Of a stretch of DNA of 64,000 bases, positions 25,027-28,875 are shown in pieces. This DNA comes from Bifidobacteriaceae bacterium (GTDB lineage Bacteria; Actinomycetota; Actinomycetes; Actinomycetales; WQXJ01), in contig JAISSX010000057.1 in NCBI GenBank assembly GCA_031272885.1, positions 1-64,000 of the forward strand. The letters are read 5' to 3'. The position numbers were made by a program, and so were the translations under genes. Numbering within the stretch: position 1 is the stretch's first letter; every line of letters starts with the position of its first letter. The notes under the pieces are model-generated. The model was given only the letters and a program-made list of their open reading frames with translations. It did not search any database and was not told the origin of the DNA.

Positions 25027-25059
25027 GGTGTGGTCGATGTCGCACAGATTGGTCCCGCC

Positions 25060-28000
25060 ATGGCTCCCCAACCAAGCTCCCGCCCATCACATTCGCCCCG
25101 CCGCCGGGCCTCAGCCGTCAGGGCGGTGGTGGCCTTCGCCGTGGCCTGCAGTGGGTTGGTGGTGGCCGATGCCGCGGGGGCGGCCGACCGTACCACGGAC
25201 CTAACCAACAAGGCCGTCTCCTACCAGCCAACCGGTCAGGTGCGCAATGTCATCCTGTTCATCGGCGACGGTATGGGTGATTCCCAGATTGCCCTGGCCC
25301 GCAACTACCTGAAGGGTGCCACCGGCACCTTTGAGGGAATTGACGCCCTACCGTTCACCGGCAGCTACACCACCTACTCGCTGGACGCGATCACCGCCAA
25401 GCCCGACTATTCAACCGACTCGGCCGCCAGCGCCACCGGCTTTGCCACCGGCACCAAGACCTACGACGGCGCCATCGGCGTCAACCGCTACAACGTCTCG
25501 GTGACCAACCTGTTCGAAGCCGCCAAGTCTTGGGGCATGCGCACCGGCAATATCACCACAGACACCCTGACGGGTGCCACGCCTGCCGCGCAGGTGGCCC
25601 ACGTGGTCAACCGCGCCTGCACAGGCCCAAACTCAACCAGTCCGACCCTTGGATCAACGTTGTGCAAGCCTGAAGCCGTTGCCCTAGGCGGCAGGGGTTC
25701 CATCGCCGAACAACTGGTGATGAACCCACCGGACCTGGCTTTCGGCGGCGGCCGTGATCTGTTCGGCACACCGGATAACCCAGCCACCGGTGGCGTCGAT
25801 GAATCGACTACCAGCGGGCAGATGATCCACGACGGTGTGGGCCTGCTGGCCCTGGACAGTGGCCACAACCTGGCCCAAGCCTGGGTCAACCGCGGAGGCA
25901 GTTACATCACCAAGGCCAGCCAAATCAGTTCGCTGACTACGGCCGACCTGCCGGTGTTGGGCGTGTTCTCCACCGACATCCTGCCCGCCATTTGGAAACC
26001 GGCAGCGGCTGCGGCGGGTGGCGCCGGCAGCAGCGCCACGCCCACCACCTGCACCGCCGAACCGGCCTCCGAATCGCGTCCCACCCTGAAGGCCATGACC
26101 GAAAAGGCCATCCAACTGCTGAACCAGCCCGCCCCGGCGCAGGGCTTCCTGCTGCAAATCGAAGGCTCGGGCATTGACAAGCGGGCCCACGCGGCCGATC
26201 CCTGCGGCCAGATCGGCGAAACCAAAGACCTGGATGAGGCCGTCAAGGCTGCCCTCGATTTCGCCATTGCTGACGGCCACACGCTGGTAATCCTGACGGC
26301 CGATCACGGCCAGGCCTCCATGGTGCAGGACGGCCCCGTGGTCAAGGACGGCTCCAGCAGCGACTCGGTCAAGGGCAGGCTGTTGAGCAGCCCTGCGGGC
26401 GGCCAACTGTGGGTCACCTACCCGTCCTACTACACCACCGGCAACAGTGCCCAGCACAACGGCACCCAGCTACGCATCGCCGCCTACGGCCCGGGCGCCG
26501 CCAACGTGGTTGGCTTGACTGACCAAACCGACGTCTTTGCGCTGATCGACCGGGCCTTGGCCCTGGGCTTCACGCCCAACCCCCTGCCGCCTTTGATCGA
26601 CACGATTGGCGGAGCCATGCGCACCACCGGGGAGAGGACTGCCACCGTCAAGGCCGCCATGAAGGCAGAGGCCGGGGCCCGTAACGTCATCCTGATCACC
26701 GCCCCCGGTCTGGGTGATACCGAACTGACCCTGGCCAGGAACTACCTGAAGGGGGCCGGCGGCAGCCTAACCGGCCTGGACGCCTTCCCCATGACCGGTG
26801 AACTGACAACATCCGCCGTGGCCTGGGACAAGGACAGTTCCAAGTGGGTGCCGGACTATGTGCCCGATCTGGCCTCGGCCAGCGCCACCCTGACCACCGG
26901 CGTCAAGGCCAGGGACGGCACAGTCGGGTTGAAGTATGACGGCACCACGGCTCGCACCCTGCTGGAGAACGCCCGCGCCAAGGGTCTGCGTACCGGCATC
27001 GTCACAACCGACGCCCTGTACAACGCCGTGGCCGCCTCCGAGTTCTCCCACACCACCAACCTGGCCACCGATTCCACCGCCCGGGCACAGAAAGCCGAAG
27101 CCCTAATCGGCGCGGCCAGGCCAACGGTCGCCATCGGCGGCGGGCAGAACACGTTCACGCCCTATGTTTCCCAAGCCCAAAACCTGGGCTACCGCTATTA
27201 CACATCCTTCAGCGCGCTGCCCAGTTCGGGTGCCACCGATGCCTCGCCGGTGCTGGCGGTCATCCACAGTGGCGATAAGGCCACCAACGTGACGGGCGGC
27301 GCTGCCGTCATTGGTGGCGCACACGTCAGTTGCACCGTGCCGGCCTTAGATTCGACCAACCTGGGGGCGCTGACCACCAAGGCCATCGGCCTGCTTAACC
27401 AGGCCGCACCCGCCAAGGGCTTCTACCTGCATGTGGGCACCTCTGGCGTGCTGCGGGCCGGCAACGCCGCCAACCCCTGCCAGCAGATCGGCTACGTGCG
27501 AGAGGTCGACGCGGCAGTCCAGGCGGCGCTGGCCTTTGCCGCCGCGGATGGCAACACCCTGGTGATCTTCACCGGCGCGGTTGGCGGTTCGGCCCAGATC
27601 GTTGACAACAGCGGGTCGGCTGCCCTCACCGCCTGGGTCAACGGCACGGCCGATGCCGCCACGCTCAAGGTGCTCTACTCCAACGCCAACGCTTCTGGTG
27701 GGCGCCAAACCGGCACCCAGGTGCCCGTCTACGCCTACGGCCCCGGCGCCGCCAACGTGCTGGGGGTCCACGCCAACACCGAAGTGGCGGACATCATCCG
27801 CCGGGTCCTGGGCCTCAGCGTCACCGCCTACAACACCCCCGCCGGCCTGCCGGTCACAGCCGCCACCCCCATCATCAGTGGCACACCCACGGTCGGCTCT
27901 GCGGTCTCGGTCTCGGTTGGCACCTGGACCCCCAGCGGCCTCAGCTTCACCTACCAATGGAAGATCGGCTCCACGGTGGTGGGCACGGGCTCCTCCTACA

Positions 28001-28875
28001 CCCCCAAGGCGGCCGATGCCGGCAAGACCCTAACCGTCACCGTCACCGGTTCCAAGACCGGCTATACCGTCACCGCCAAGGTCTCGGCGGGTAAGACCGT
28101 GGCCGCGCCGCCGGGCTACACGCCCCAAATGGAATGGTTCACCCTGTCGCCAGACCTGAACGGCGACGGCCGCGGCGAGGTCCTGGCCTTGAAAGCCTCC
28201 AGCGGAGCGCTCTATGCCTACCCGGCCTCCACCTCCGGCTCGCTGACCGGCGGCACCACCCTGATTTCGTCCGGCATGCAGGGCCAGCGGATCTTCGGCC
28301 CCGGTGACTGGAACGGCGACGGCAAGGCCGATGTCGTGACAGTGGACAAGTCCGGCTACATGTGGCTTTATCCCGGGGACGGCAAAGGCAACCTGGGCAC
28401 CAAGAAGGAGATCGGCCACGGCTGGACGCCGTTCCGGATCATCCCGGCCGGAGATCTGACCCAAGACGGTGCCAACGACATGTTGGCGATCGATGCCGGC
28501 GGGCGGCTGTGGCTGTACGCCGGCAACGGCAGCGGTGGTTTCAAAGGCCAGCCGAAACAGGTGGGCCAAGGCTGGGTGGGGCTGGAACTCTACGCCGCCG
28601 GGGACCTCAACAACGACGGCAAGAACGACATCTTGGCCATCCTGCCCAACTCCACCCTGTGGGCCTATTCCGGGCGTGGCAACGGGACGTTCTCCGTGCC
28701 CAGGCAAGTGGGCCGCGGTTGGGGCACCTTCGAACTGGCTGCGGGAGCGGACCTGAACGGCGACGGCCGGGCCGACATCGTCGGCCGCTACAACGCCACC
28801 GGGGAGCTGTACTACTACCAAGGCAACGGTGGCGGCTCCTTCCAAGCCGCCAAGAAGATCGGCTCAAGCTGGTAG
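25060..28875 (+). CDS. phoA: Secreted alkaline phosphatase with a degenerate second phosphatase domain, Ig-like domain and FG-GAP repeats
   Basis: About 1271 residues with a basic n-region and a hydrophobic core (RAVVAFAVACSGLVVADAAGA), so exported. Domain 1 (about 60-500) is PhoA-like: FIGDGMGDS, TDSAASATGFATGTK with the nucleophilic Ser, IEGSGIDKRAH, TADHGQAS and QHNGTQLRIAAYGPG retain the zinc ligands. The site of E. coli Asp153 reads TGATPAA, so the Mg site is altered. Domain 2 (about 540-930) aligns with domain 1 but reads ITAPGLGDT, DLASASATLTTG, VGTSGVLRAG and TGAVGGSAQ at those sites, so it lacks metal ligands and nucleophile. An Ig-like domain (about 936-1020) and five FG-GAP/VCBS-type repeats with DLNGDGR and DWNGDGK motifs follow. 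The start is uncertain: ATG 25060 or GTG 25030. Confidence 0.92.
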   Translation: MAPQPSSRPSHSPRRRASAVRAVVAFAVACSGLVVADAAGAADRTTDLTNKAVSYQPTGQVRNVILFIGDGMGDSQIALARNYLKGATGTFEGIDALPFTGSYTTYSLDAITAKPDYSTDSAASATGFATGTKTYDGAIGVNRYNVSVTNLFEAAKSWGMRTGNITTDTLTGATPAAQVAHVVNRACTGPNSTSPTLGSTLCKPEAVALGGRGSIAEQLVMNPPDLAFGGGRDLFGTPDNPATGGVDESTTSGQMIHDGVGLLALDSGHNLAQAWVNRGGSYITKASQISSLTTADLPVLGVFSTDILPAIWKPAAAAAGGAGSSATPTTCTAEPASESRPTLKAMTEKAIQLLNQPAPAQGFLLQIEGSGIDKRAHAADPCGQIGETKDLDEAVKAALDFAIADGHTLVILTADHGQASMVQDGPVVKDGSSSDSVKGRLLSSPAGGQLWVTYPSYYTTGNSAQHNGTQLRIAAYGPGAANVVGLTDQTDVFALIDRALALGFTPNPLPPLIDTIGGAMRTTGERTATVKAAMKAEAGARNVILITAPGLGDTELTLARNYLKGAGGSLTGLDAFPMTGELTTSAVAWDKDSSKWVPDYVPDLASASATLTTGVKARDGTVGLKYDGTTARTLLENARAKGLRTGIVTTDALYNAVAASEFSHTTNLATDSTARAQKAEALIGAARPTVAIGGGQNTFTPYVSQAQNLGYRYYTSFSALPSSGATDASPVLAVIHSGDKATNVTGGAAVIGGAHVSCTVPALDSTNLGALTTKAIGLLNQAAPAKGFYLHVGTSGVLRAGNAANPCQQIGYVREVDAAVQAALAFAAADGNTLVIFTGAVGGSAQIVDNSGSAALTAWVNGTADAATLKVLYSNANASGGRQTGTQVPVYAYGPGAANVLGVHANTEVADIIRRVLGLSVTAYNTPAGLPVTAATPIISGTPTVGSAVSVSVGTWTPSGLSFTYQWKIGSTVVGTGSSYTPKAADAGKTLTVTVTGSKTGYTVTAKVSAGKTVAAPPGYTPQMEWFTLSPDLNGDGRGEVLALKASSGALYAYPASTSGSLTGGTTLISSGMQGQRIFGPGDWNGDGKADVVTVDKSGYMWLYPGDGKGNLGTKKEIGHGWTPFRIIPAGDLTQDGANDMLAIDAGGRLWLYAGNGSGGFKGQPKQVGQGWVGLELYAAGDLNNDGKNDILAILPNSTLWAYSGRGNGTFSVPRQVGRGWGTFELAAGADLNGDGRADIVGRYNATGELYYYQGNGGGSFQAAKKIGSSW

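Follow-up and report, generated by a model that had tools for sequence, protein, structure and literature searches.

Few enzymes have been studied as thoroughly as alkaline phosphatase (PhoA), which acts as a symmetric dimer; its monomer is reportedly the subject of a 2003 paper by Boulanger and Kantrowitz. Duplicated enzyme domains in which one half is dead are known in other families. The E. coli enzyme is a dimer whose isolated monomers are generally inactive, while hybrids of an inactive and a wild-type subunit are half-active (PMC6325577). Why PhoA requires the second subunit is still argued, and a chain with one active and one dead domain would be a ready-made test. Dead PhoA subunits are already known from the laboratory; a natural, conserved fusion of an active and a dead PhoA was not found described in the open papers searched. 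Here we analyse a gene with this layout in a Bifidobacteriaceae genome.

Layout of the gene and homology of its two domains

The window, a stretch of 64,000 nucleotides, contains on its forward strand an open reading frame of 1271 codons, open from the ATG at 25060 to 28875, with an alternative GTG start at 25030 in the same open frame. The encoded protein comprises two PhoA domains, D1 and D2, followed by accessory parts:

25060-28875, + strand: gene for a secreted chain of active PhoA, very probably dead PhoA, Ig-like and FG-GAP parts (open reading frame and translation, Pfam)
25060-25185, + strand: putative signal peptide, RRRASAVRAVVAFAVACSGLVVADAAGAA (read from the sequence)
25219-26565, + strand: D1, active-type PhoA domain, lacking the N-terminal arm motif and carrying A59 in place of T59
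26608-26649, + strand: GGAMRTTGERTATV, the PhoA arm motif (N-terminal; GGARR.TGDQT...), retained where D2 begins and forming the D1-D2 linker (arm profile)
26650-27830, + strand: D2, very probably dead PhoA domain (PF00245, AlphaFold2, Foldseek, residue table)
27840-28125 (approximate), + strand: Ig-like stretch (sequence reading; Pfam match not significant)
28129-28872, + strand: about five FG-GAP repeats (PF13517, 5.9e-40, five stretches)

Pfam placed Alk_phosphatase matches in four stretches spanning both halves of the protein, in addition to the FG-GAP repeats. The whole protein scored 391 bits against PF00245 (cut-off 24.4) and 666 bits against PRK10518 (cut-off 540), with the best stretch in D1. 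Database annotation would label the whole chain as alkaline phosphatase, masking the dead half. An earlier note on this DNA, made from the letters alone, had placed an Ig-like domain and FG-GAP repeats after the phosphatase domains; the repeats were recovered by PF13517, and the Ig-like stretch stands as a reading of the sequence, a significant Pfam match having been sought there and not found. The FG-GAP part (28129-28872) is similar to a portion of the secreted esterase in PDB 8w20 (E=1e-16). The Ig-like and FG-GAP parts probably tether the enzyme outside the cell or present it there.

D1 shares the full catalytic set with E. coli PhoA, at about 44% identity in the structural alignment. In a MAFFT alignment with E. 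coli K-12 PhoA as its anchor, the numbering of which is used throughout, D1 retains D51, S102, T155, R166, E322, D327, K328, H331, D369, H370 and H412, and its motifs lie at 25261 (IGDGMG), 25411 (STDSAASATG), 26158 (IEGSGIDKRAH), 26296 (TADHG) and 26452 (QHNGTQ). The gene at 25060-28875 is the sole PF00245 gene of the window genome, in which searches for PhoD and PhoX found neither, so D1 has no backup alkaline phosphatase from these three families.

The alignment of D2 along the length of D1, claimed in the earlier note, extends over 451 columns with 36% identity (E=1e-56). Taken alone, D2 matched PF00245 (9.7e-41, 140.5 bits), PhoA chains in the PDB (2e-54) and PRK10518 (7e-68, under that model's cut-off). 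Structure prediction, which the earlier note had suggested as a check, returned a PhoA-like fold for D2: AlphaFold2, supplied with an alignment of named relatives, gave a pLDDT of 89.6 and a pTM of 0.92, and Foldseek matched the model to E. coli PhoA entries with a TM of 0.88 on the query and an rmsd of about 2.5 A. As judged from these matches and from the model, D2 is a true PhoA homologue and has the same fold as E. coli PhoA. The coding base composition of the two domains is also alike (GC3 of 0.84 in D2 and 0.81 in D1).

Loss of the catalytic centre in the second domain

The earlier note had listed intact catalytic motifs in D1 and replaced ones in D2, and all of them are present at their sites within 25060-28875. 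The replacements in D2, confirmed where indicated by the residue table and a motif check, are:

26695-26715, + strand: ITAPGLG for IGDGMG, metal ligand D51 to P (residue table, motif check)
26860-26886, + strand: VPDLASASA for TDSAASA, nucleophile S102 to L (residue table, motif check)
27019-27063, + strand: YNAVAASEFSHTTNL for the D153/T155/R166 stretch, changed to N, V and L (residue table, motif check)
27433-27465, + strand: VGTSGVLRAGN for VEGASIDKQDH, with E322, D327, K328 and H331 changed to G, L, R and N (residue table, motif check)
27571-27588, + strand: TGAVGG for TADHxH, with D369 and H370 changed to A and V (residue table, motif check)
27703-27720, + strand: RQTGTQ for EHTGxQ, H412 to Q (residue table, motif check)

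Read in the same alignment, D2 carries P51, L102, N153, V155, L166, G322, L327, R328, N331, A369, V370 and Q412. The nucleophile, R166, K328 and all metal ligands are missing, and D101 is the sole survivor among the active-site residues checked. This loss is concentrated in the catalytic centre: the window D2 retains none of 10 catalytic residues and 42 of 63 other invariant PhoA positions (67%; Fisher p=7e-5), where invariant denotes non-catalytic positions at least 99% conserved across 125 single-domain PhoAs. Every other PhoA-family domain tabulated with D2 has S102, R166, D327, H331, D369 and H370, and the core set of these domains is intact if one sets aside alignment gaps at D51 or H412 and substitutions of a conservative kind, such as E322D or T155S.

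E. coli PhoA stripped of D101, D153, R166, E322 and K328 has a kcat/KM of about 0.2 per M per s, against 6.3e8 for the intact enzyme (PMC4438272). Compared with that five-group mutant, D2 retains D101 but additionally lacks S102 and all zinc ligands. Since five groups already account for such a drop, D2 is very probably inactive. On the residues that it carries, D2 is a PhoA homologue, yet it cannot be classed as an alkaline phosphatase.

Distribution and age of the fusion

A search for other proteins with an active and an inactive PhoA domain, also suggested in the earlier note, recovered the same layout in three further genes from two other actinobacterial genomes. Two of these genes lie on contig JAISTI010000236.1 (L132) of the Propionibacteriaceae MAG Md513_bin133, which was located by scanning named genomes with an alignment query; a scan of genome contigs with the single D2 sequence gave no match, so that the alignment query was needed. 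The remaining gene, in L191 (G792), was found with a profile of the D2s, and a D2 profile search of the window's own family and of Propionibacteriaceae relatives gave no further cases. The fusion is rare, occurring in 3 of about 1,400 genomes searched. The partly overlapping sets comprised 59 relatives, about 400 genomes each from the order and the phylum, and several hundred genomes related to G782 and G792. Frame length and match count served to separate single PhoAs from fusions, so that a fusion whose D2 is very short could have escaped detection.

The two L132 genes are convergent and adjoining (L132:1807-6926), and each pairs an active D1 with a dead D2. L132a has a C-terminal Ig domain, Big_3_5-like and just below the cut-off; the product of the other gene begins with a hydrophobic segment and contains a linker rich in Pro and Thr. 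For a further MAG of the Md513 series the gut of the termite Mastotermes darwiniensis is given as the source (PMC12483993), and the L132 MAG is probably also from a termite gut.

Our phylogenetic analysis groups the four D2s in one clade (100/100) and the four D1s in another (100/98). A first tree of 49 rows left D1 and D2 unresolved on long branches, and this was resolved once relatives were added. Because the D1s and D2s of the four genes form separate clades, D2 is not a recent copy of the window D1; the four genes share an old duplication or fusion, and the topology indicates that the active-plus-dead chain predates the split of these genes and lineages. The D2 branches are long (1.9-2.5 changes per column), which leaves the placement of D2 relative to other PhoAs unsure.

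Tandem PhoAs of another kind also occur in actinobacteria. These proteins (L150:3926-6748, L044:2477-6064, L192 from G830, and one in G1014) have open frames of 1159-1232 residues, and in both of their domains a common CAQ(Y/F)G arm replaces GGARR. Both domains are catalytically intact in L150 (Neoactinobaculum massilliense), L044 and, by eye, L192; the C-terminal end of L150 has FG-GAP-like repeats, likewise by eye. An origin of D2 in the same event as these Neoactinobaculum-type tandems was rejected, as their domains group apart in the tree. A cluster of three consecutive PhoA genes occurs in Pseudonocardiaceae bacterium YIM PH 21723 (L154:3941-8272).

The D2s of the four genes are too diverged for dN/dS. 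Those of L132a, L132b and L191 have lost roughly 100 residues or more, and the stretch around S102-R166 is mostly gone in three of the four. These deletions and the long branches are what a functionless, decaying remnant, tolerated while D1 works, would display. We consider such decay quite improbable, given that the reading frames of the four D2s run on, free of stops, in all three genomes despite their high divergence, and that the window D2 keeps its 42 invariant structural positions, its well-folded prediction and a GC3 close to that of D1. Motifs newly shared at the former active site (window 26680-27760, L132 and L191), namely NVILITAPG in three of the four D2s and FTG in all four, argue against decay as well. 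Three of the four also share a G-V/L-H near the C-terminus and a new His at position 433. That histidine, in a superfamily known for catalytic versatility, could be taken to suggest a different activity through new residues; this is highly improbable, as every PhoA metal ligand is lost and no polar or metal-binding cluster is conserved across the four D2s.

The shared replacements also bear on the suggestion that D2 is a binding module, whose dead pocket or new surface would hold a phosphorylated polymer, teichoic acid or matrix glycan and bring D1 to it, as the FG-GAP part would. Dead catalytic domains are often reused for binding in other families, and adhesive-looking parts accompany D2 in the window protein (Ig-like, FG-GAP) and in L132a (the Big_3_5-like Ig domain). 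The residues that would bind phosphate (R166, K328, metals) are nevertheless gone, three D2s without most of the S102-R166 stretch leave no common pocket, and what the D2s share are hydrophobic or small replacements (ITAPG, FTG) in place of a conserved polar patch; a binding role is accordingly unlikely.

With a homologous predicted fold, lost catalytic residues and conservation in four genes of three genomes, D2 has the hallmarks of a pseudophosphatase. Homology, the D2 model, the contrast between no catalytic and 67% of other invariant positions retained, and the three further genes all support the proposal in the earlier note that D2 is a duplicate whose fold survived while its chemistry was lost.

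Proposed contact between the domains and comparison with known phosphatases

The N-terminal arm and T59 sit, as we assume, in the dimer interface of E. coli PhoA, R24 and T59 being dimer contacts, and the T59R substitution is reported to convert the enzyme to a monomer. No paper naming T59 or the arm as interface elements was found in the open literature searched. In the fusions both elements are distributed unequally. The arm motif scored 22.9 bits before the window D2, 24.1 in L132a, 9.5 in L132b and 25.5 in L191, and before the corresponding D1s 0.0, 6.1, 5.1 and 0.3 bits. Held-out single-domain PhoAs of this type mostly scored 21-50 bits, and the value of the window D2 was reached by none of 200 shuffles. 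The motif, GGAxRxxGD, is clear before three of the four D2s and marginal in L132b. At position 59, T is at least 99% conserved in the 125 single PhoAs; each of the four D2s retains it, and the D1s have A, A, S and S instead. Such an uneven distribution would be expected if D2 were a built-in partner. The case for an interface depends on the arm and a small number of residues, because over the full set of conserved positions those lost from D1 but kept in D2 are not enriched: a general trend of this kind was unsupported (8/36, p=0.17 in the opposite direction; p 0.60 without deleted positions).

A model of D1 and D2 together (882 residues) had a mean pLDDT of 82.6 and a pTM of 0.90. Two equal domains placed at random would give a pTM near 0.5-0.6, so that the predicted relative placement of D1 and D2 is confident. 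The high value could still reflect a packing other than that of the PhoA dimer, and this leaves room for D2 as an appendage that regulates or stabilises D1 (as a folding aid, inhibitor or protease shield) without reproducing the arrangement of the dimer. The contact face is unspecified by the pTM, and the shrinkage of D2 in three genes would suit such a looser role; the arm kept before D2 and the T59 kept in all four D2s speak against it, and we regard an appendage as fairly unlikely.

We consider it somewhat probable that D1 and D2 form an intramolecular pseudo-dimer, in which D2 would give the interface and D1 the chemistry. D1 would hydrolyse phosphomonoesters at the usual PhoA site of two zinc and one magnesium, which Gly153 and the small residue at position 330 would tune. 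D2, unable to bind the catalytic metals or to form phosphoserine, would fold as a PhoA subunit, replace the second subunit and supply the contact that PhoA monomers require for activity. That D1 and D2 pack like the PhoA dimer, and that D1 needs D2 to function, is inferred, as is the inactivity of D2. Among the roles that the earlier note had offered for the dead copy (binding a substrate, a polymer or the partner domain), the residues and models favour the partner domain. Deletions in the other three D2s may weaken the interface and argue against a pseudo-dimer. A further step is possible, though we put it forward tentatively: a symmetric homodimer may have turned into a one-chain heterodimer, its active half losing the arm and T59 and its dead half losing catalysis.

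D1 itself departs from the common PhoA type. The additional Mg-network residue D153 is G in the window D1 and in three of the four fusion D1s in all, vs D in 99% of single PhoAs, and position 330 is A or S in all four. The window D1 carries Gly153 (25570-25614) and Ala330 (26158-26190), and the L132 D1s G153 and S330. These are the two sites of the engineered E. coli variant D153G/D330N, which is hyperactive (PMC1712229), so D1 is naturally altered at both. A faster D1 could compensate for the absent second site.

In E. coli PhoA two identical one-domain chains form a symmetric dimer, whereas the window protein joins two PhoA domains, one of them very probably dead, in a single chain. The closest parallels to the proposed pseudo-dimer combine one active and one dead subunit: the inactive/wild-type hybrids and PDB 3bdg, a Foldseek match that is a crystallised mixed dimer of wild-type and T155V PhoA; D2 likewise has V155. 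Because such hybrids are half-active and the T155V mixed dimer was crystallised, a dead subunit can sit beside an active one. Both are laboratory constructs of separate chains, whereas the window protein is a natural fusion. The intact tandem PhoAs (L150, L044, L192) resemble it in placing two PhoA domains on one secreted chain, and differ in keeping all catalytic residues in both domains, in their separate duplication and in their arm. In some receptor protein tyrosine phosphatases, too, an inactive homologous domain, the D2 pseudophosphatase, follows the active one in the same chain; their fold, chemistry and cell type are unrelated, so that the likeness is an analogy only. If the pseudo-dimer holds, the window protein would be a natural PhoA with a single active site and a direct test of the long-debated cooperation between subunits.
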